Below, one piece after another: positions 5,108-17,756 of a stretch of DNA of 33,211 nt. Within the stretch, counting starts at the first letter, position 1. The number at the start of each line of letters is the position of its first letter. The notes under the pieces were generated by a model that was not told the origin of the DNA, made no database searches, and worked only from the letters and a program-made list of their open reading frames with translations. This DNA comes from Acidobacteriota bacterium. GTDB lineage: Bacteria > Acidobacteriota > Vicinamibacteria > Vicinamibacterales > CAVVIG01. The stretch lies in NCBI GenBank assembly GCA_028876655.1, contig JAGWRA010000036.1:1-33211 (forward strand), in the 5' to 3' direction. The translations under genes and the position numbers were made by a program.

Positions 5108-7636
5108 TCAGGGTTGCAGCGTGGCGGCGGCCGGCCGGACCGGCGCGTCGAGCAGCAGGTCGAGAATCCGCAGCGCCGCGGTCTTCGCGAGCGGCCCGGT
5201 CTGGCCGGCCGGGCCGACGCAGGTCGGACACCCGGACTGGCAGCCGCACCCTGCGATGAGCGCCTGGGTGCCAGCGAGCAGTTCCGCGTGCATCCGGTAC
5301 AGCGGTTCGCTGAACCCGATCCCGCCCGGATAGCTGTCGTACACGAAGATGCGGGGCTCGGTGCTCAGCGCCGTCGCCGCTTCCTCACCGCTCTGGTCGA
5401 CGGAAATCCCGATGTCGTGCCGGTCGCACATCAGCAGCAGCTGCGCGACCTGCCGCATGGCGAACGCCAGGCCGCTCACGCCGTCGCGCCGGTCGTCGGC
5501 CGCGAAGGGCAATGCCGTCATCACGGCCGCCGGAATCGTCAGCCAGTAGGCGGTGGTGTGCATCTGCTGCTCGGGCAGATCCAGCTCGCCCGAGCCGACG
5601 TTCTCGTTCGTGTAGAACTTGATCTTCTTGAACCCGACGACGCGCGAGACGACATGGACTTCTCCATGGGAGTGCGGGGACCCGCTTCGCAACGGCTCAG
5701 GGCTGCCACGCTCTGACAAGGCACGTGCATCACTGGAAGCCGCGAACTCGTCGAGGATCGTCACGCGCGAATAGGTGATGGCGTCGGTGTAGTAGTCGCA
5801 GTCGATCTCGCGGACGTAGGCCTTGCGCCCCTCGAAGTCGAGTATCTCGACCTGGAACAGGCGGCCCTCCATGAGATAGATCGCCTTCGGGTGCAGCGTC
5901 GACAGCGCGCTGGTGAAGTCCGTCTCGCCGATGACACGAGGCTCGTGCGTGGTGTCGACGACGACGAAGTTGTCGGAGCTGACCGAGCGCAGGCTGACCG
6001 CGTCGGCCGGGTACGATTCGCTGGTCCAGTGCCAGGTGCCGGCGGTCTCGTCCGCGGCATCGAGGTCGTCGGCAGGCACGGACCGGTGGACCAACCCCTC
6101 TTCGGCCAGAATCCCCAGGATCTCCTGCAGATCGTGCGCGCCGAAGCGCTCGGCCGTGCCGAACGGGAGCTCGAAGGCCGCGCACTTGATGTGATCGACG
6201 AGGATGTGCAGGTTGTCGGGGTCGATGAGCGCCCGCTCCGGCGAGGCATCGAAGAAGTACGACGGGTGCTGGATGACGAACTGATCGATCGGCGCGCTGC
6301 TCGCGACGAGCACCGCCGCCGACCGGCTCGCCCGCCGTCCCGCCCGCCCGGCGCGCTGCCAGGTGGCCGCAATCGTCCCCGGGTAGCCGACCAGCACGGC
6401 CACGTCGAGCGCGCCGATGTCGATCCCGAGCTCGAGTGCGCTCGTCGACACGACCGCCCGGACGTGCCCCTCGCGCAGCCCTTTCTCGATCTCCCGCCTG
6501 CGGTTGGGCAGGTAGCCGCCGCGATAGCCGCGCACGGCGCCGTGACTGCCAGGCTCCTGCTCGAACTCGTCCTTGAGGTACGTCGTCAGGATCTCGGTGG
6601 CGAGCCGGCTCTGGGCGAAGACGATCCCCTGCAGCTGGCGCCGGATGAACTCGCCCGCCACGCGGCGCGCTTCTCCGAGATACGACCGGCGGATGCCGAG
6701 CTGGCGGTTCACCACCGGCGGGTTCACGAAGACGAACAGCTTCTCGCCGCGGGGCGCGCCGCTGCGCTCGACGATCTCGAAGGATCGCTCCGTGAGCCTT
6801 TCGGCCAGCTCTCTGGGATTGGCGATCGTCGCCGACGAACAGATGAACACCGGGTCGGATCCGTAGTGCCGGCAGATCCGCTGGAGCCGCCGCAGCACGT
6901 TGCAGAGGTGGCTGCCGAAGACGCCACGGTAGGTGTGCAGCTCGTCGATGACGATGTAGCGCAGGTTCTCGAACAGCTTCGCCCAGCGCGGATGGTGCGG
7001 CAGGATCCCCGAATGCAGCATGTCGGGGTTGCTCAGCACCACGTGGGCGCGCGTCCGGATCGCCCGCCGCGCGTCCTGGGGCGTATCGCCGTCGTACGTG
7101 AAGACGCCGATCTCCGCGCCGCACTCCTCGCCGACCAGGTCCGACAGCGCGTGCAACTCGGCGAGCTGGTCCTGCGCGAGGGCCTTGGTCGGGAACAGGT
7201 ACAGCGCGCGGCTCGCCGGATCCTGCAGGATGGCGTGCAGCACCGGCGCGTTGTAGCAGAGCGTCTTGCCCGACGCGGTCGGCGTCGTCACGACGACGTG
7301 CCGGCCGCTGAGGATGTGTTCGATGGCTTCGGCCTGGTGACAGTAGAGCGAGGTCACGCCGCGGCGGCCGAGCACACGGCGGACCCGCTCGTCGAGGTCC
7401 GCGGGAAAGGGCCCGGTGACGGCGTCGGCGGCCGGCAGGCGCCGCACGGCCGTCACGTGGCCATCCGGCGTGTCGGGACGGTCCTGGAGCCAGTCGGGCG
7501 CCAGCCGGTCGAGCGCGGCGTTCAGGGCGGTGTCGCGGCGCGAGCGGCCGGTTGCCGGCCGACTCGGCAGGCCAGCGGAGGGGCTGTCCGGCCCGGACAG
7601 CCCCTCGCCGGTCCCGCCGTTCACGCGGTTGCCCAT
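5108..7636 (-). CDS. MrfA/YprA-like DEAH-box helicase with DUF1998-type cysteine cluster
   Basis: Walker A TTPTASGKT, VIDELHTYRGVFGSHLCN, SATIANPRELAERL, STSALELGIDIG, QRAGRAGRR and C-terminal CGCQSGCPTCVGP. Confidence 0.93.
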   Translation of the reverse strand: MGNRVNGGTGEGLSGPDSPSAGLPSRPATGRSRRDTALNAALDRLAPDWLQDRPDTPDGHVTAVRRLPAADAVTGPFPADLDERVRRVLGRRGVTSLYCHQAEAIEHILSGRHVVVTTPTASGKTLCYNAPVLHAILQDPASRALYLFPTKALAQDQLAELHALSDLVGEECGAEIGVFTYDGDTPQDARRAIRTRAHVVLSNPDMLHSGILPHHPRWAKLFENLRYIVIDELHTYRGVFGSHLCNVLRRLQRICRHYGSDPVFICSSATIANPRELAERLTERSFEIVERSGAPRGEKLFVFVNPPVVNRQLGIRRSYLGEARRVAGEFIRRQLQGIVFAQSRLATEILTTYLKDEFEQEPGSHGAVRGYRGGYLPNRRREIEKGLREGHVRAVVSTSALELGIDIGALDVAVLVGYPGTIAATWQRAGRAGRRASRSAAVLVASSAPIDQFVIQHPSYFFDASPERALIDPDNLHILVDHIKCAAFELPFGTAERFGAHDLQEILGILAEEGLVHRSVPADDLDAADETAGTWHWTSESYPADAVSLRSVSSDNFVVVDTTHEPRVIGETDFTSALSTLHPKAIYLMEGRLFQVEILDFEGRKAYVREIDCDYYTDAITYSRVTILDEFAASSDARALSERGSPEPLRSGSPHSHGEVHVVSRVVGFKKIKFYTNENVGSGELDLPEQQMHTTAYWLTIPAAVMTALPFAADDRRDGVSGLAFAMRQVAQLLLMCDRHDIGISVDQSGEEAATALSTEPRIFVYDSYPGGIGFSEPLYRMHAELLAGTQALIAGCGCQSGCPTCVGPAGQTGPLAKTAALRILDLLLDAPVRPAAATLQP
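7578..7606. repeat. Perfect 13-bp inverted repeat with 3-nt loop inside the annotated 5' end of the mrfA-like gene
   Basis: GAGGGGCTGTCCG-GCC-CGGACAGCCCCTC read directly from 7578-7606. Confidence 0.9.
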
Positions 7637-7736: not shown

Positions 7737-9140
7737 ATGACCATCCGGACACCCGCGGCGCCCGCCGCTCCACCGGCGCTCGCCCGCCGCCTCGGCGGCT
7801 GGAGCGCCACCGCTCTCGTCGTGGGGATCGTCATCGGGTCCGGCATCTTCCGATCGCCCGCCAGTGTGGCGGCGCTCGTGCCGCATCCCCTGTTGATGCT
7901 CGGCGTCTGGATCGCGGGTGGCCTCGTCACGCTCTGTGGCGCGCTGTCGTTCGCGGAGCTGGCCGCGTCGCTGCCGAACACGGGCGGCATCTACGTGTTC
8001 CTGCGCGAGGGGTGGGGGCGCCTGCCGGCGTTCCTGTTCGGATGGTCGCAGCTGCTGGTCATCCGGGCGTCGGCGCTGGGCGGCATCGCCATCGTCTTCG
8101 GCGAGTACCTGCTGCGATCGTTCGGGGTCGACCCCGTCGCCCACGTGATGGCCGCGCGGGGCGTCGCGGCCGCGGCCATCGCATTCGCGGCGCTCATCAA
8201 CATCCGCGGGGTCTCGCTCGGCGCGGTGGTCGTCAACGTGTCGACGTCGTTGAAGTATGCAGCGCTCGCCGTCCTCGTGCTCGCGGCGTTCGCGCTCGGC
8301 GGCGCGCACGGCGCCACGGCGGCACACCTGCAGGCACCGGCGGGAACGCACGTGCCGTTCGGGGCGTTCGGCGTCGCGCTGGTCGCGGCGCTCTGGGCCT
8401 ACGACGGGTTCGCCGACGTGTCGTTCGCCGGGGGCGAGGTGACCGACCCCGGGCGCAACCTGCCGCGCGCCATCATCGCCGGCACGCTGTCAATCGTGGT
8501 CATCTATGTGCTGGTGAACCTCGCCTATGTCTACGTGCTGCCGATCGGGGTGATGGGCCGGTCGCCGCTCGTCGCGGCCGACACGATGGCGGCGATCTTC
8601 GGACGGAGCGGCGTCGCGCTGGTGTCGGTCTTCGTGATGATCTCGACCTTCAGCTCGCTGAACGGTATCACACTGGCCGCGCCCCGGATCTTCTTCGCCA
8701 TGGCCGACGATGGGCTGTTCTTCCGGAAGATGGCGGCCGTTCATCCGCGCTACCGGACGCCGTACATCGCCATCGTCCTCGCCGCCCTGCTCGGCATGGC
8801 GCTGGTCATGAGCCGCAGCTTCGAAGCGATGACGGGCATGTTCGTGCTGGCCATCTGGCCGTTCTACGCGCTCAGCGTGGCGGCGCTGTACCGGCTGCGC
8901 CGCACGCGCCCCGACCTGCCCCGGCCGTACCGCGTGGCCGGCTATCCGCTGGTTCCGGCCATCTTCATCCTCGTCGTCGTCTACTTCGTCGCCAACGCCT
9001 TCGTGCAGCAGCCGCTCTCGACCGTGCTCACCTTCGGCGTCATCCTCTCCGGCGTGCCCGTCTACTACCTGGTGTTCGGACGCGCATCCGGGGGGCGCCT
9101 CACGCCGCAGATCGAGCTGGACGGCCACGGATCCCGTTGA
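7737..9140 (+). CDS. APC superfamily amino acid permease
   Basis: GIVIGSGIFRSPASVA, LCGALSFAELAASLPNTGGIYVFLREGWG, WAYDGFADVSFAGGEVTDPGRNLPRAIIAGT; about 12 hydrophobic segments. Confidence 0.93.
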   Translation: MTIRTPAAPAAPPALARRLGGWSATALVVGIVIGSGIFRSPASVAALVPHPLLMLGVWIAGGLVTLCGALSFAELAASLPNTGGIYVFLREGWGRLPAFLFGWSQLLVIRASALGGIAIVFGEYLLRSFGVDPVAHVMAARGVAAAAIAFAALINIRGVSLGAVVVNVSTSLKYAALAVLVLAAFALGGAHGATAAHLQAPAGTHVPFGAFGVALVAALWAYDGFADVSFAGGEVTDPGRNLPRAIIAGTLSIVVIYVLVNLAYVYVLPIGVMGRSPLVAADTMAAIFGRSGVALVSVFVMISTFSSLNGITLAAPRIFFAMADDGLFFRKMAAVHPRYRTPYIAIVLAALLGMALVMSRSFEAMTGMFVLAIWPFYALSVAALYRLRRTRPDLPRPYRVAGYPLVPAIFILVVVYFVANAFVQQPLSTVLTFGVILSGVPVYYLVFGRASGGRLTPQIELDGHGSR

Positions 9141-9165
9141 CGCGCCCGCACACCGGCGCTACGAT
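9137..9165 (+). promoter_or_regulatory. Sigma70-like promoter overlapping the permease stop codon
   Basis: TTGACG (9137-9142), 17-bp spacer, TACGAT (9160-9165). Confidence 0.45.
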
Positions 9166-9194
9166 GCCGGCAGGGTGCTTCTGTGTACGATAAC

Positions 9195-9211
9195 GGCCCG
9201 CACGGCGGGCC
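9195..9211. other. Hairpin (permease terminator or leader structure)
   Basis: Perfect 7-bp stem GGCCCGC-ACG-GCGGGCC. Confidence 0.5.
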
Positions 9212-9299
9212 CCCGAACGGAACGGAGCGAGCCACAGTGCGAGCGAGTGCAGTGAGCCGGGGTTCGTGGCAGAGCCCCGACTGAAGAAAGGAGACGCTG

Positions 9300-9620
9300 A
9301 TGGAAGCAGCCGAGCCGCGGCCGCGGCGTCGGGGTTTCTTCTTGTCGTCGGCGGATCTCGAAGAGCTGGAAGCCACCGAACAGGGCGACCCTGAAGGGCT
9401 GACCAGCCGTCTGCGATTGTTCCGCCCGCGCACCCGCCTGGACAGTGCGGGTGTTTCCCGCCACACCTTCAGCGGCAGCCGGCGATCCGGCGGCCGACTC
9501 CCGGCCGCGCCGGTCTCGCTCGACGACGGCGCCGTCCAGATCCGGCCGGCACCGGTCAGGCCCCCCGCTAGATCAGCGACCGCGACTGGCAACCGTCGAC
9601 GGTCACGCAGGCGCCGCTGA
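9300..9620 (+). CDS. Possible small hypothetical protein (106 aa, Arg-rich C-terminus)
   Basis: ATG preceded by GAAAGGAGACGCTG (good SD); upstream promoter-like element; C-terminal ~50 bp overlap the convergent SDR gene, so it may be spurious. Confidence 0.35.
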   Translation: MEAAEPRPRRRGFFLSSADLEELEATEQGDPEGLTSRLRLFRPRTRLDSAGVSRHTFSGSRRSGGRLPAAPVSLDDGAVQIRPAPVRPPARSATATGNRRRSRRRR

Positions 9621-10347
9621 TCCAGCTCGCCCGCGGAGAGGCCAGGAAGGCCACCACGGCCCCGACTTCCTCGGGCCGGCCGAAGCGGCCGAACGGCAGC
9701 TCGCGGCGGATGAAGTCGGCGATCCCGTCCGGGTCCGCTTGCTGGCGGCGGTCCCACGAGCCGCCCGGGAACAGGATCGAGCCCGGTGCGATGCTGTTGA
9801 CCCGGATGTTGTCGCCGGCCAGCTGCTGGGCCAGCGACTTCGCCAGGCTGATCTCGGCCGCCTTCACCGCGTTGTAGGTCATCCGTCCGCCCGACTCCCG
9901 CCCCCAGATCGACGCGATCATCAGGATGACGCCGCCTCCCCGCCGCTTCATCAGCGGCACCGCGAGCCGCGAGGCCCGGATGGCCGGGTAGAGCGTCCCG
10001 TCGAACGCCTCCTGCCAGTCGGCATCCGACGTGTCGGCGATCGTCCCGCCACGGGCCAGCGCCAGGTTGTTCACCAGGATGTCGAGGCCCCCGAACGTCT
10101 CCACCGTCCGCTCGACAACGGTCGCCAGACCGTCGGCCGTGAAGAGGTCCGCCTGGACGGCGAGGACGCGCGCCGGATCGCCGGCCAGCTGCCGCAGGCG
10201 GCCGACGGCCTGTGAGAGCGCCGGTTCGGTGCGCGCGCAGACCGCGACGCGGCAGCCTTCCGCGACGAGCGCCTCGGCCGCGGCGAGGCCGAGGCCGCGG
10301 CTGGCGCCGGTAATGAGGGCGATTCTGTCGGTCAGTTGCAAGTCCAT
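9568..10347 (-). CDS. Short-chain dehydrogenase/reductase (SDR)
   Basis: MDLQLTDRIALITGASRGLGLAAAEALVAEG, LDILVNNLALA, MTYNAVKAAEISLAKSLAQQLAGDNIRVNSIAPGSI. Confidence 0.95.
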   Translation of the reverse strand: MDLQLTDRIALITGASRGLGLAAAEALVAEGCRVAVCARTEPALSQAVGRLRQLAGDPARVLAVQADLFTADGLATVVERTVETFGGLDILVNNLALARGGTIADTSDADWQEAFDGTLYPAIRASRLAVPLMKRRGGGVILMIASIWGRESGGRMTYNAVKAAEISLAKSLAQQLAGDNIRVNSIAPGSILFPGGSWDRRQQADPDGIADFIRRELPFGRFGRPEEVGAVVAFLASPRASWISGACVTVDGCQSRSLI

Positions 10348-11360: not shown

Positions 11361-11705
11361 ATGCTCACTGCCGCCGCACTGGGAATGGCCGGGTATGGCG
11401 CCTACTCCATCGGCTGGGCGATCCTCGATCTCCTGCGGGGCGCCCGGCTCGAATGGTGGGCCGAGCTGGCGCTCGTCCTCTTCGGCCTCCTGCTCATCCT
11501 CAGCGCCGCGTTCGTGCGGGTGATGCTGCCTGGCGGCCTCGCGTTCGCCCTGGGCTCGCTGCTCGGCCTGCAGGCCCTGGCCATCCACGATGCCGCCCAT
11601 CTGACGGGCCAGGTCGCGCTGGCGCCGCAGATCGCACGGGGCGTGTTCGCCCTCGCGCTGGTCCTGCTCGCCTGGCAGGGTTCCCGCGCCGTGCGCAGCG
11701 ACTAG
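11361..11705 (+). CDS. Small integral membrane protein, unknown function
   Basis: 114-aa ORF MLTAAALGMAGYGAYSIGWAILDLLRG..., three to four hydrophobic segments; sits between divergent and convergent neighbours. Confidence 0.65.
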   Translation: MLTAAALGMAGYGAYSIGWAILDLLRGARLEWWAELALVLFGLLLILSAAFVRVMLPGGLAFALGSLLGLQALAIHDAAHLTGQVALAPQIARGVFALALVLLAWQGSRAVRSD

Positions 11706-12718
11706 CGCGAGTCGATCCGGAGGACGATCTTGCCGAACTGCCCGGCGTCGTCCATCCGCGCATGGGCGGCGGCCGCCTCGGCCAGCGGGAACACCCGGTC
11801 CACCACCGGCCGGAGCGCGTGCCGATCGCAGAACGCCAGCATGGAGGCGAAGTCGCGGGCCGTCCCCATCGTGCTGCCGAGGATGGTCAGCTGCTTCCAG
11901 AAGATCCGCCGGACCTCCAGCTTCCCCGTGGCGCCCGTCGTCGCGCCGTAGGTGACGACGCGGCCGCCGGGCCTCGCCAGCGCCAGGGCCTGTCCGAAGG
12001 TCTCGCCGCCGACGCTGTCGACCACGACGTCCGGGCCATCCCCGCCGATCAAGCCACCCAGGCCCTTCACCCAGTCACCCGTCCGGTAGTTCACACCGGC
12101 TTCCGCGCCCAGCTGCCTGGCCCGGGCGATCTTCTCGTCGCTGCCCGACGTGACGAACACACGGGCACCGATCGCGTGGGCGATCTGGAGGACGAACGAG
12201 GAGACACCGCCGCCCGCGCCGGTGACAACGACCGTCTCGCCCGGCTGCACGCCCGCGCGGGTCACGACGGCACGATAGGCGGTGAGGCCGGCCAGCGGAA
12301 GCGCCGCGGCCTCCTCGAACGACAGGGCGGCCGGCTTCGGATGAACGTTGGCCGCCGGCACCTTCACGCGCTGCGCGTAGGTGCCGTTGTCGGGCAGGCC
12401 GAGGATCCGATAGGCGCGCCCCTGCGCCCGCTCATCCGGTCCCCAGTCCATGCCGGGGTCGATGACGACCGCGCGGCCGAGCAGGCTGCGATCGACCCCC
12501 TCGCCCACCGCGGCCACCTCGCCGGCGCCATCGGAGCCCAGGATGATCGGCAGCGTGATGCCGGCGTAGAGCCCCTGGCGGATGAAGGCGTCGCGGTGGT
12601 TGAGCGCCGCCGCCTTCAACTGCACCACCACCTCGCCCGGACCGGGGGCGGGATCGGGGACCTCTTCCAGCTTCAGGTTCGTCGGGGGACCGATCTCACG
12701 CAACACGACAGCTTTCAC
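11702..12718 (-). CDS. Zinc-type alcohol dehydrogenase / NADPH:quinone oxidoreductase (MDR family)
   Basis: MKAVVLREIGPPTNLKLEEVPDPAPGPGEVVVQLKAAALNHRDAFIRQG, VVVTGAGGGVSSFVLQIAHAIGARV; GTG start with AGAAGGAG SD. Confidence 0.93.
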   Translation of the reverse strand: MKAVVLREIGPPTNLKLEEVPDPAPGPGEVVVQLKAAALNHRDAFIRQGLYAGITLPIILGSDGAGEVAAVGEGVDRSLLGRAVVIDPGMDWGPDERAQGRAYRILGLPDNGTYAQRVKVPAANVHPKPAALSFEEAAALPLAGLTAYRAVVTRAGVQPGETVVVTGAGGGVSSFVLQIAHAIGARVFVTSGSDEKIARARQLGAEAGVNYRTGDWVKGLGGLIGGDGPDVVVDSVGGETFGQALALARPGGRVVTYGATTGATGKLEVRRIFWKQLTILGSTMGTARDFASMLAFCDRHALRPVVDRVFPLAEAAAAHARMDDAGQFGKIVLRIDSR

Positions 12719-12743: not shown

Positions 12744-13703
12744 TCAGATTTCGCCTCGTTCGAGGCGAACAGCCACCTGCAGGGGCCCTCTTTCGGCGAT
12801 GGCTGTCAAGAAGTCTTGATATGGAATCATTTCTCTGGAGAGTGAAAGATGCATGTTGATCTCGGCTCCCCTGAACGTGCGGTTGAACCCCCGCAGTCTC
12901 AGAGCATGAACTCGTTCGAACAGGAGGTCTCTGAGCAGGTGATGAGCGCGACGCGCTGAGATCACACGAAAATGAGAGCCTCTGACTTGGCTGCGAAGCG
13001 GCTCAACCCATCCCTCGGACAACAGGGATCTGACGATGGCCTCTTCAACCGCCCGACTGGAAATCGCCGCCAGCCAAGCGAAATCGTTTGACACAAGGGG
13101 CTCGATTTCAGCCCGGCGGATATCTGGCACGCTGATGATCAGAAAAACGTAAGGAACCCTCTCCTCATCCTGTCGGCGAAGCGCTCCGTGGATCTTGTAC
13201 GTGGCCAGCGCGAAGCAGTCTTCGGGCTCGAGTCCAACATACTGGGCCGACTCCCTGAACAGCGTCCCGTGGAACTTGATATTCAGGCGGCAGATCGGTC
13301 GACCTTCCGCGTCGATCAGGCGATAGTCCGTATCCGTCCGCCCCACACGCTCGTCTTCGACGCCAAACCCCTGTGCCCCCAGTACGTCCCGCGACAACTC
13401 TTCGAAATGAGTCTCAGCGAGCGACCCCAGAAGCATCTGGACAATACCTTGCCTGGCCCGAGCGAGCGCGTCCTGCGTCGGCTCGCTGGCATCGAGCCAT
13501 TCGTACAAGCCGCCCTGCTGAATGGAATCGGTCCAGTTGGACAGATGGAAACGGGACAACTTCGTCTGTTGGGCCACCTGCTCCAATGGCTCACCGCGAA
13601 CGACCCTGTCCAGGGCCCGAGCCCGCTGCAATAGCTTGGGCTCTTCGGGCGCGCCGTCGTACAACAAGCCCATTACCTTCAGGTACCGCGTCAGATCCTG
13701 CAC
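12744..13703 (-). CDS. Putative restriction endonuclease: N-terminal HTH plus PD-(D/E)xK-like core
   Basis: Abuts an M.PvuII-like methyltransferase; HTH-like LEQVAQQTKLSRFHLSNWTDSIQQGGL; nuclease-like D...-CRLNIKFHG segment (RTDTDYRLIDAEGRPICRLNIKFHG). GTG start at 13703; lower GC than flanks. Confidence 0.6.
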   Translation of the reverse strand: MQDLTRYLKVMGLLYDGAPEEPKLLQRARALDRVVRGEPLEQVAQQTKLSRFHLSNWTDSIQQGGLYEWLDASEPTQDALARARQGIVQMLLGSLAETHFEELSRDVLGAQGFGVEDERVGRTDTDYRLIDAEGRPICRLNIKFHGTLFRESAQYVGLEPEDCFALATYKIHGALRRQDEERVPYVFLIISVPDIRRAEIEPLVSNDFAWLAAISSRAVEEAIVRSLLSEGWVEPLRSQVRGSHFRVISARRAHHLLRDLLFERVHALRLRGFNRTFRGAEINMHLSLSREMIPYQDFLTAIAERGPLQVAVRLERGEI

Positions 13704-14630
13704 TTATGCTCGCCTGCGAGAACGGTTCTCGGTTGCTCGAGCCGCATCATTGGGTGGGAGGAATCGAAACCGAGAGCCCTTCAGATAGTCCTCAGCAAGC
13801 TCAACTGCAATCCATCGCCGGCCCGTATGCTCGGAAGCCTCCCCAGTGACGTTGGAGCCAGCGAACGGATCCAACACCGTATCGCCTTCATCGGTGCAAA
13901 GCTTGATGAAGAACTCAGGGAGGGACCTGGGAAACCTGGCTGGGTGGACAGGAAGCGAAGCCTCGACACAGGCCCTCAGATACCTGCTGTTGGAATCGTT
14001 ATTCCCGATCTCCAGCAAGTTCGGCGGAATGGCTCCACCGTGGTTCTTCTGGAATTTGTTCGTAATGTTGTGCCCGGACGGTCGTTCCTTCGCGCGATAT
14101 CCCTTCTCGATCAGCCGCAGCATGTCTCGGCTGTACGTCTTCAGCACTTCCCGATTGTTCGCTTTCGGCCACTCTGACTTGCTGAGCCAGCAGACGAGGT
14201 TCACAGCGCTCTTCACACGAATCCGCCTTACATTGACCCACTCAGCCGGAGCCGGAAGCGCAGCCGGATTGTACCAGTAGAAATCCTGGGCCAAGTGCAG
14301 GCCCACAGTGTCGCAGAGCGCAAGAATGAGGCGGTACTGGTAGAGAGAGCGTGTCGGCGTGCCTTTATTCCACACGCCGCCCAAGTCGATGACCAGGCTT
14401 CCGGTCGACTTCAGAAGCCGTCGACACTCCGCAGCGTAGGGTGTGAACCATTCGACAAATCGGTCCTCTCCCACAGAGTTATAGGGTTTCTTCTTACGGA
14501 AGGTCAGCGGGAATGGAGGGGAAGTCACGACGAGGTCAATCGACTCACTTGGCAGGTCAGACATGACCTCCAAGGAATCGCCCAGGTAGGCACGCCCGAA
14601 TCGCGTGGAATAGTAAGGCTTACGCTTCAC
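13704..14630 (-). CDS. Site-specific DNA methyltransferase, beta class, M.PvuII-like (probable N4-cytosine)
   Basis: VVTSPPFPLTFRKKKPYNSVGEDRFVEWF, DFYWYNPAALPAPAEWVNVRRIRVKSAVN, RPSGHNITNKFQKNHGGAIPPNLLEI, HPARFPRSLPEFFIKL, VLDPFAGSNVTG; motif order TSPPF first, FAGSNVTG last. GTG start at 14630. Confidence 0.9.
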   Translation of the reverse strand: MKRKPYYSTRFGRAYLGDSLEVMSDLPSESIDLVVTSPPFPLTFRKKKPYNSVGEDRFVEWFTPYAAECRRLLKSTGSLVIDLGGVWNKGTPTRSLYQYRLILALCDTVGLHLAQDFYWYNPAALPAPAEWVNVRRIRVKSAVNLVCWLSKSEWPKANNREVLKTYSRDMLRLIEKGYRAKERPSGHNITNKFQKNHGGAIPPNLLEIGNNDSNSRYLRACVEASLPVHPARFPRSLPEFFIKLCTDEGDTVLDPFAGSNVTGEASEHTGRRWIAVELAEDYLKGSRFRFLPPNDAARATENRSRRRA

Positions 14631-14696: not shown

Positions 14697-14733
14697 AAAA
14701 ACACGAATGGGGCAGCCACGGCCGCCCCATTCG
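14697..14733 (-). terminator. Rho-independent terminator of nrdJ
   Basis: Perfect 10-bp stem CGAATGGGGC (14704-14713) / GCCCCATTCG (14724-14733); read on the minus strand it is followed by GTGTTTTTCGG. About 30 nt after the nrdJ stop. Confidence 0.85.
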
Positions 14734-14761
14734 CTCAACGCCCACGAAGGCCGGACCGGAG

Positions 14762-17563
14762 TTACGCGCAGCCTGACGTATTGCCGCAGTTGGCGCACTT
14801 GTAGCAGCTGCCGCTGCGCACCATGATGGCGCCGCAGGTCGAGCAGGGCGGCGCGTCCTCCTGGTTCTGCATGGCCGCGAAGGCGCTGGCGGACGGCGCC
14901 GCTACCGGGGCCGGCGTCTGGACGCCGGGTGCCGGCGCCTCGGCCACTGCCTCCCGCACGTTGACGCCGGCGCGGAACTGCTCGTCCGGCGACAGGAACT
15001 TCGCCGCGAGCCACCGGAAGATGTAGTCGACGATCGACTTGGCGAAGCGCACCTCCGGGTTCTTCGTCATGCCGGACGGCTCGAACCGGACGTGGCTGAA
15101 CTTGTCGACGAGCACCTGCAGCGGCACGCCGTACTGCAGGGCGTAGGAGATCGCCTGGGCGAAGGCGTCGGCGAAGCCCGAGATCGTCGACCCTTCCTTC
15201 GCCATCACCAGGAAGATCTCGCCCGGGGTCCCATCGTCGAACAGGCCGGCGGTGATGTAGCCCTCGTGGCCGGCGATGTCGAACTTGTGGGTGATCGACC
15301 GCCGCTCGTCCGGCAGCTTCCGGCGGACCGGCTGGCCGGCGGCGGCCACCGCCGCCTTGGCGGCCTCGGCCGGGGCGGTGCCCTTCGAGGTGTTCAGCGG
15401 CTGCGTCCGCTTGCTGCCGTCGCGGTAGATCGAGATCGCCTTCGCGCCCATACGCCACGACTCGATGTAGGCCTGCATGATCTCGTCGACCGTCGCCTCC
15501 TTCGGGACGTTGACGGTCTTCGAGATGGCGCCCGAGATGAACGGCTGCGCCGCCCCCATCATCTTGATGTGGCCCATGTAGTGGATCGACCGCGTCCCCT
15601 TGGCCGCCTTGAACGCGCAGTCGAAGACCGGCAGGTCGCGCTCGCGCAGGCCGGGCGCCCCTTCGATCGTCTCGTGCTGGTCGATGTAGTCGACGATCGC
15701 CTGCACGGCCGCCGGCGCGTACCCGAGGCGCGACAGCGCCATCGGCACGGTCTGGTTGACGATCTTCATCAGGCCGCCGCCGACCAGCTTCTTGTACTTC
15801 ACGAGCGCGATGTCGGGCTCGATGCCGGTCGTGTCGCAGTCCATCATGAAGCCGATGGTGCCGGTGGGCGCGAGCACCGTCGCCTGCGCGTTCCGGTAGC
15901 CGTGCTGCTCGCCGAGCTCGACCGCCTCGTCCCAGGCATCCTGCGCCGCCTCGAAGAGGTCGGCCGGGACGGCCGGGGCGTCGACGTCGCGCAGCGCGTC
16001 GCGGTGCTTCCGCATGACGCGCAGGAACGGTTCGCGGTTCTTCTCGTAGCCGGCGAACGGGCCGCCGTGATCGCGGGCCACGCGGGCCGACTGCGCGTAG
16101 GCGTCGCCGGTCATCAGCGCCGTCAGCGCCGCCGCGTACGCCCGGCCTTCGTCGCTGTCGTACGGCAGGCCGCGCGACATCAGCAGCGCGCCCAGGTTCG
16201 CGTAGCCCAGCCCGAGCGGCCGGTAGTCGTGGCTGTTCTTCTCGATCGACCGGGTCGGATAGCTGGCGTTGTCGACGAGGATCTCCTGCGCCGTGATCAG
16301 CGTGCGGATCGCCGCCCGGTACGAGGTGACGTCGAACTCGCCGTCCTCCCGCAGGAACTTCATCAGGTTCAGCGACGCGAGGTTGCAGGCCGAGTCGTTC
16401 AGGAACATGTACTCGGAGCAGGGGTTCGACGCGTAGATCCGGTCGGTGTTCGGGCAGGTGTGCCACTCGTTGACCGTGGTGTCGAACTGCATCCCGGGAT
16501 CGCCGCAGACGTAGGTCCCCTCGGCGATGAGCTTGAGGAGATCCTTCGCCTTGTAGGTGTCCACCACCTCGCCGCTCGTCACCGCGCGCGTCCGCCACTC
16601 GCCGTCGTCGAGCGCCGACCGCATGAACTCGTCGGTCACGCGGACGCTGTTGTTCGAGTTCTGGAAGAACACCGACGAGTACGCCGTCCCCGTGAACGAG
16701 CCGTCGTAGCCGGCGTCGATGAGGGCCCAGGCCTTCCGCTCCTCCTCGACCTTGCAGTTGATGAAGTCGACGATGTCCGGGTGCTCGGCGTTCAGGATGA
16801 CCATCTTCGCCGCGCGGCGCGTCTTGCCGCCCGACTTGATGACCCCGGCGAACGCGTCGTAGCCCTTCATGAACGACACCGGCCCCGACGCCGTGCCGCC
16901 CCCCGCCAGCAGCTCCTTCGACGACCGGATCGGCGACAGGTTCGTCCCCGTGCCCGAGCCGAACTTGAAGAGCATCCCCTCGGTGCGCGCCAGCGTCAGG
17001 ATCGAGTCCATCGTGTCCTGCACCGAGTTGATGAAGCAGGCCGAGCACTGCGGCGCCTTCTCGAACCCGCAGTTGAACCAGACCGGGCTGTTGAAGGCCG
17101 CCTTCTGGTACACCAGCAGGTGCTTCAGGTCGTCGCTGAAGGCCTGCAGCGCCTCCTCGGAGGCGAAGTACTTCTGCGCCCGCGCCCAGTCGGTGATCGT
17201 CGTGACGACCCGCCCGATGAGCTGCCGCACGCTCCGCTCCCGCTCCGGCGTGCCGAGCTGCCCGCGGAAGTACTTCGACACCACGATGTTGGTCGCCTGC
17301 TGCGACCAGGCCTTCGGAATCTCGACGTCGCGCTGCTCGAAGACCGCTTCACCCTTCTCGTTCGCGATCACCGCCGCGCGCAGCTCCCATTCGACCTCGT
17401 CGAAGGGATCGCGCCCCGCCCGGGTGAAGTAGCGCGAGAACTCCAGCCCGGGAGCCGACGCACCGGTCGACTTCCGGGCCCGCGGAGCCTCGGATGCCTG
17501 GGAGCTGCCGCTCTCGACGAGCTGGCCCGCCCCCGCCGCCTCGTAAGCAGCGCCTTTTTCCAT
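14762..17563 (-). CDS. nrdJ: Vitamin B12-dependent (class II) ribonucleotide reductase
   Basis: KYFRGQLGTPERERSVRQLIGRVV, FGSGTGTNLSPIRSSKE, NPCSEYMFLNDSACNLASLNLMKF, LAPTGTIGFMMDCDTTGIEPDIALVKYKKLVGGG, C-terminal CSTCGAIMVRSGSCYKCANCGNTSGCA. ATG at 17563 with GGAGGAAGG SD. Confidence 0.97.
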   Translation of the reverse strand: MEKGAAYEAAGAGQLVESGSSQASEAPRARKSTGASAPGLEFSRYFTRAGRDPFDEVEWELRAAVIANEKGEAVFEQRDVEIPKAWSQQATNIVVSKYFRGQLGTPERERSVRQLIGRVVTTITDWARAQKYFASEEALQAFSDDLKHLLVYQKAAFNSPVWFNCGFEKAPQCSACFINSVQDTMDSILTLARTEGMLFKFGSGTGTNLSPIRSSKELLAGGGTASGPVSFMKGYDAFAGVIKSGGKTRRAAKMVILNAEHPDIVDFINCKVEEERKAWALIDAGYDGSFTGTAYSSVFFQNSNNSVRVTDEFMRSALDDGEWRTRAVTSGEVVDTYKAKDLLKLIAEGTYVCGDPGMQFDTTVNEWHTCPNTDRIYASNPCSEYMFLNDSACNLASLNLMKFLREDGEFDVTSYRAAIRTLITAQEILVDNASYPTRSIEKNSHDYRPLGLGYANLGALLMSRGLPYDSDEGRAYAAALTALMTGDAYAQSARVARDHGGPFAGYEKNREPFLRVMRKHRDALRDVDAPAVPADLFEAAQDAWDEAVELGEQHGYRNAQATVLAPTGTIGFMMDCDTTGIEPDIALVKYKKLVGGGLMKIVNQTVPMALSRLGYAPAAVQAIVDYIDQHETIEGAPGLRERDLPVFDCAFKAAKGTRSIHYMGHIKMMGAAQPFISGAISKTVNVPKEATVDEIMQAYIESWRMGAKAISIYRDGSKRTQPLNTSKGTAPAEAAKAAVAAAGQPVRRKLPDERRSITHKFDIAGHEGYITAGLFDDGTPGEIFLVMAKEGSTISGFADAFAQAISYALQYGVPLQVLVDKFSHVRFEPSGMTKNPEVRFAKSIVDYIFRWLAAKFLSPDEQFRAGVNVREAVAEAPAPGVQTPAPVAAPSASAFAAMQNQEDAPPCSTCGAIMVRSGSCYKCANCGNTSGCA

Positions 17564-17727
17564 GCCTTCCTCCAAACCGGAGACTGCCCCCGCCCCGGGG
17601 GCGTCCCATCCGACACACCTGAATTTGAAGTGACGCGGGCAGACGTGCGATGGGGACGAGGTCCCCTCGACGGCTTCAGGCAGGAGGCTGGGAACTCCCG
17701 CGGTTGTCTGTCGCGCTACGGCGGACA

Positions 17728-17756
17728 ACTATGCGCCCGCCTCTGGCGTTTGTCAA
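17728..17756 (-). promoter_or_regulatory. Sigma70-like promoter of nrdJ
   Basis: Minus strand TTGACA (17756-17751), 17-bp spacer, CATAGT (17733-17728); about 157-nt leader. Confidence 0.7.

Follow-up and report, generated by a model that had tools for sequence, protein, structure and literature searches.

What occupies the interval between nrdJ and an oxidoreductase gene in this Acidobacteriota genome, and what might its two genes do together? The window, by which we mean the whole stretch of 33,211 nucleotides that was analysed (contig JAGWRA010000036.1), carries at this position two minus-strand genes with zero bases between the stop codon of one and the start codon of the other (Table 1), so the contiguity reported in the first-pass annotation is exact. 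That annotation had also called the pair AT-richer than its flanks and placed it between the nrdJ terminator and the oxidoreductase gene, and both statements hold. GC content falls from about 70% in the surroundings to 57-59% across the cassette, GC3 is 0.68-0.69 in both cassette genes versus 0.95 in nrdJ and 0.91 in the oxidoreductase gene, an intrinsic terminator was found at 14734-14703 on the minus strand, and the oxidoreductase was recognised by Pfam. The product name of nrdJ is one that we take from its sequence and from established knowledge; its coordinate 17728 is the start of the longest open reading frame, taken as such, and its C-terminal part has homologues in 29 of the 30 other genomes searched. 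The two cassette genes alone fill the nrdJ-oxidoreductase interval, and no separate control (C) gene of the XRE type was found there upstream of the nuclease gene. We consider it probable that the pair is a Type II restriction-modification (RM) system of two genes, horizontally acquired and made up of a PvuII-type methyltransferase (M) and a cognate, PD-(D/E)XK-like restriction endonuclease (R) of an uncatalogued family. As a type of system this would be ordinary; it is the nuclease family that appears to be new, judged against the models of Pfam, NCBIfam, PADLOC and PHROGs.

Table 1. Features of the cassette, its two proteins and its flanks; positions are those of the window.
Feature	Residues	Position	Strand	Details or basis
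Putative restriction endonuclease gene	319 aa	13703-12744	minus	GTG start
M.PvuII-type (presumed N4-cytosine) methyltransferase gene	308 aa	14630-13704	minus	GTG start; TAA at 13706-13704
TAA/GTG junction of methyltransferase and 319-aa genes		13701..13706	minus	gap of zero, same frame; sequence
nrdJ intrinsic terminator, upstream of cassette		14703..14734	minus	14-pair stem and T-rich tail; inverted repeat I4
nrdJ, adenosylcobalamin-dependent ribonucleotide reductase		14762..17728	minus	upstream flank; host-like GC3 0.95
Zinc-type alcohol dehydrogenase/quinone oxidoreductase		11702..12718	minus	downstream flank; PF00107/PF08240
N-terminal helix-turn-helix of 319-aa protein	aa 26-66	13506..13628	minus	HTH_28 E=0.0017, under Pfam cut-off
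Putative catalytic core of 319-aa protein, E97..E101..DTD126Y..N141-I-K143		13275..13415	minus	conservation and model
DCFALATYKI segment, after core strands	aa 162-171	13191..13220	minus	identical in five members
C-terminal region of 319-aa protein	aa 195-319	12747..13121	minus	conserved SAR(R/K)A and LERG; five-member alignment
Methyltransferase motif IV, TSPPF	aa 36-40	14525-14511	minus	
Methyltransferase motif I, DPFAGSN	aa 254-260	13871-13851	minus	

The cassette had been described at the outset as horizontally acquired, and this is probably correct, both because the GC3 of its genes is foreign to the surroundings and because in a genome of the same genus (G001) a different gene lies between nrdJ and the orthologous oxidoreductase gene: the cassette is absent there, and the interval holds a SnoaL/limonene-epoxide-hydrolase-like gene on the opposite strand. 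Among 162 genomes searched within the order, only the window genome and one other (G028, Acidobacteria MAG contig JAHECP010000247.1) carry the 319-aa nuclease, and the G028 pair is also located directly after nrdJ. A single insertion shared by these two genomes, with recombination across nrdJ, was considered and found to be unsupported. The spacers between nrdJ and the methyltransferase gene have little similarity to each other, and DNA identity between the two genomes falls from about 85% to 68% at the cassette border; we therefore refrain from proposing one common insertion. The region 3' of nrdJ may be an insertion hotspot, since three of the roughly 30 genomes inspected have a methyltransferase gene there. 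In G027, a genome of the same order, the gene directly after nrdJ encodes a D12-class (Dam-like) adenine methyltransferase (L073:4028-4867, G027:C17).

The upstream gene of the cassette encodes a protein that matches PF01555 (Pfam, E=1e-35) and the PADLOC model MTase_II (E=6e-108). The long motifs that it had been said to share with M.PvuII turned out to be part of a full-length relationship, with a phmmer match to M.PvuII (1boo) across residues 3-296 (E=9.6e-98) and about 50% identity to the pPvu1 gene. Its motifs follow the beta-class order, in which SPPF comes early and the FxG-type AdoMet motif late, and the protein is an M.PvuII-type, beta-class methyltransferase, presumably of N4-cytosine. 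From the methyltransferase similarity alone we infer that the target is probably a PvuII-like site, which may be CAGCTG, modified to N4-methylcytosine. CAGCTG is mildly under-represented in sampled host DNA (observed/expected 0.83, versus 0.68 in cassette-free G001), and a survey of palindrome avoidance in the same host sample brought out no candidate target, CAGCTG being without special avoidance. In the G001 sample (L114-L133) AACGTT is very rare, with 2 seen against about 25 expected, which hints at another restriction specificity in that genome. M.PvuII-like methyltransferases are widespread on plasmids and viral contigs, where their neighbours are varied: R.PvuII on pPvu1, annotated HNH nucleases in Thiothrix and Roseivivax, or no evident nuclease. 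Those with a partner of the 319-aa type do not strictly form one clade, and three partnerless relatives are nested among them.

The 319-aa partner is a different matter. It had been described as unlike the small R.PvuII and as possibly belonging to a new nuclease family, and in the searches made here neither description needs revision: comparison with R.PvuII gave no detectable homology (HH probability 0.3%), searches of PADLOC, PHROGs, NCBIfam and PDB sequences returned no match above cut-off, and Pfam returned a weak helix-turn-helix (HTH) match and nothing else convincing. Five relatives were found among the genomes and viral contigs searched. Three are in other Acidobacteriota families (G028, with 55% identity, G355 and G619), which with the window makes four families, and two are on viral contigs (L006, which has two matching viral records, and L008). 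Plasmid and phage records held no relatives of the 319-aa protein; none of the L006 protein were found in plasmid records, and none of the L005 protein in phage records. A search with the NIKFHG DNA pattern yielded 17 new viral loci, all of them unrelated. The scan of genome contigs recovered only the G028 copy; because it used two peptide patterns, and with the search beyond Acidobacteriota shallow, absence from other phyla is not demonstrated.

In all six family members the gene directly preceding the nuclease gene, on the same strand, encodes an M.PvuII-like methyltransferase, so that adjacent methyltransferase and nuclease genes are kept as a pair, as in a Type II RM system. Identity to the window proteins in the four aligned relatives is 55-77% for the methyltransferase and 34-55% for the nuclease; greater conservation of M than of R is the usual asymmetry of such genes. 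The constant pairing, the lack of a family match and the predicted core discussed below all lend support to the earlier suggestion that the partner is a cognate endonuclease of another lineage, in what may be an undescribed pairing with its methyltransferase. The neighbourhoods of two relatives also fit a role in anti-phage defence. The G355 pair adjoins a Bil (bacterial ISG15-like) system, identified by PADLOC as BilA/BilB/BilD immediately upstream (L074:5448-8298) and itself preceded by a UvrD/GajB-like helicase. The L006 viral contig encodes a TIR-domain protein (PADLOC TIR-TM) and an HTH_3 plus ImmA/IrrE-type (Peptidase_M78) protein (1030-1791, 6279-7628), as well as an open reading frame at 8532-9629 that was judged by eye to be tyrosine-integrase-like. 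Just past the G355 nuclease gene, and convergent with it, is a gene with a borderline Mrr_cat restriction-endonuclease match (L074:10945-11859).

The domain structure of the 319-aa protein was approached through profile matches and structure prediction. The weak N-terminal HTH match in the window protein has a counterpart in the G028 homologue (HTH_23, E=0.0013); no HTH model matched the L005, L006 or L008 proteins. An AlphaFold model built from two sequences was poor (pLDDT 56) and was replaced by one built from a five-sequence alignment (mean pLDDT 82.7, pTM 0.79), in which approximately residues 261-290 of the C-terminal region are of low confidence. In the model the N-terminal part is helical and contains the HTH; a long helix comes next, then three strands and, further on, another strand. 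Of the conserved residues, E97/E101 lie on a helix, and D126 and N141/K143 occupy two neighbouring strands. E97, E101, DTD126Y and N141-I-K143 are invariant in the five aligned members and present in the sixth. The topology and the placement of D126 and K143 in the model fit a PD-(D/E)XK nuclease, with Asn141 replacing the acid. Foldseek against the PDB gave no match with E<0.3 and low TM-scores, in a list rich in archaeal splicing endonucleases and Hjc, and it matched the HTH to a Pax5 entry (prob 0.99 over 49 columns, E=1.2). The nuclease fold on which the earlier proposal depended is thus present in the prediction as a nuclease-like core with weak statistics (E>0.3), and Foldseek lends weak support to calling this core PD-(D/E)XK-like. 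HH comparison of the family with Hjc found nothing, and the likeness to Hjc is therefore one of fold and not of homology. It is important to note that all six members have Asn where the (D/E)xK motif has its acid, so catalytic activity cannot be taken for granted; Asn is unusual here yet not disqualifying, because active restriction enzymes, HinP1I among them, can have Gln at this position. The C-terminal region may serve in dimerisation or target recognition.

When an RM system enters a new host, methylation has to precede cleavage, and the junction of the two genes may bear on how this order is kept. Stop and start codons abut in four of the six members (TAA/GTG in the window, TAG/GTG in G028 and G355, probably TAG/TTG in G619), the other two junctions being a 2-base gap (L008) and a short overlap (L006), and the nuclease gene starts with GTG or TTG in five of the six. 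We infer from this arrangement that R would be synthesised after M, in a reinitiation-coupled and sub-stoichiometric manner, and stop-start translational coupling of R to M is possibly involved. We propose that the methyltransferase would modify a short site, probably to N4-methylcytosine within a PvuII-like target, and so protect the sites of the host, and that the 319-aa partner, as the cognate endonuclease, would cut unmodified sites. The N-terminal HTH may aid DNA binding or regulate the operon, to which autoregulation might be added; the core would cut by means of E97/E101, D126 and K143, Asn141 standing where an acid is usual; and coupling of nuclease translation to the 3' end of the methyltransferase gene would let modification come first. 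It is tempting to go further and see here a new endonuclease family, defined by an HTH and an Asn-x-Lys variant of PD-(D/E)XK, whose expression is timed without a C protein through the zero-gap junction, either by reinitiation or by occasional M-R readthrough. Taken as a whole we regard this extended proposal as tentative and rather doubtful. In PvuII systems, expression is timed by a C protein that is sometimes fused to R (PMC3850674).

The invariant Asn and the N-terminal HTH might be expected if the 319-aa protein were a regulator, an analogue of C protein that joins an HTH to a dead PD-(D/E)XK-like domain and tunes an orphan methyltransferase; in viral contigs, moreover, the M.PvuII-like methyltransferases recovered are mostly without a partner of the 319-aa type. 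We think this unlikely, since no member departs from K143, D126 or E97/E101 and no part of the protein, the HTH included, is as well conserved as the nuclease-like core, which is the opposite of what would be expected for a regulator with a dead domain. Inactivity could instead be a property of the cassette, the acquired RM pair having degenerated so that it no longer works in the window host. The G619 nuclease contains a masked stretch and an in-frame TAG and may for that reason be broken, so decay may occur in the family, and CAGCTG shows no extra avoidance. Both window genes are nevertheless intact and contain every family-invariant residue, and pN is well under pS when the 319-aa gene is compared with the G028 copy (0.31 and 0.75, the latter saturated, so that no dN/dS ratio is given); a defunct cassette in the window host is accordingly very improbable.

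The resemblance of the predicted core to Hjc resolvases among solved structures raises the different question of whether the partner is a nuclease that is not cognate to the methyltransferase, being either methyl-dependent (Type IV-like) or a repair enzyme (Vsr-like or junction-resolving). A Vsr-like function sits poorly with this gene pair, since Vsr serves m5C deamination and is inapplicable to an N4-cytosine methyltransferase. A methyl-dependent nuclease would attack its own host if its site were that of the methyltransferase, and with another site it would need no pairing. In favour of the methyl-dependent form, DpnI shows that a PD-D/EXK domain linked to a winged helix may depend on methylation (PMC4081073). 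We hold a non-cognate nuclease to be quite improbable, and prefer a cognate restriction endonuclease as the partner of this methyltransferase.

Restriction nucleases diverge fast, and new families are therefore found mainly via their conserved methyltransferases; the 319-aa family is an example of one reached in this way. Because it went unrecognised by the models used here, defence surveys would probably label such loci as orphan methyltransferases. If active, the family would offer an unusual Asn-x-Lys active site together with a candidate expression-timing device that operates without a control protein.

Archaeal Hjc and splicing endonuclease are among the solved structures that come closest to the model core. 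In Pyrococcus Hjc (sequence confirmed as 1gef) we take the catalytic roles to belong to E9, D33, E46 and K48, whose spacing is similar to that of E101, D126, N141 and K143 in the window protein. The latter, however, has no sequence similarity to Hjc and carries Asn for Glu before xK, and it differs from both Hjc and splicing endonuclease in its extra HTH and C-terminal regions and in its methyltransferase partner. Small divergent genes beside sister methyltransferases in phage Dfl-JY14 and on a Methanothrix plasmid (L017:1427-2095, L013:1551-2162) carry PD-(D/E)xK-looking motifs (QVK, ECK); they were rejected as homologues, no similarity to the 319-aa family being detectable, and are perhaps further unrelated partner nucleases. 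Thiothrix (pThCT3_1) and Roseivivax likewise have an M.PvuII-like methyltransferase gene followed in tandem by a nuclease gene, there annotated as HNH, and the Thiothrix HNH protein was also set aside as a homologue, being without similarity to the 319-aa family. The PvuII system of Proteus vulgaris pPvu1 (M.PvuII, C.PvuII, R.PvuII) has a methyltransferase from the family of the window enzyme, with about 50% identity to it, but there M is divergent from C-R, whereas the window cassette is an M-R tandem without a C gene, and R.PvuII has 157 residues, in contrast to the 319 of the putative R in the window, which has no detectable similarity to it. Fusions of the CR.NsoJS138I type likewise combine an HTH and a restriction nuclease in one protein beside a PvuII-type methyltransferase (PMC3850674). 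In those C-REase fusions the HTH portion is a C protein, joined to an orthologue of R.PvuII (50-69% identity; PMC3850674), whereas the window protein joins an HTH of the HTH_28/HTH_23 type to a putative nuclease that is unrelated in detectable sequence.
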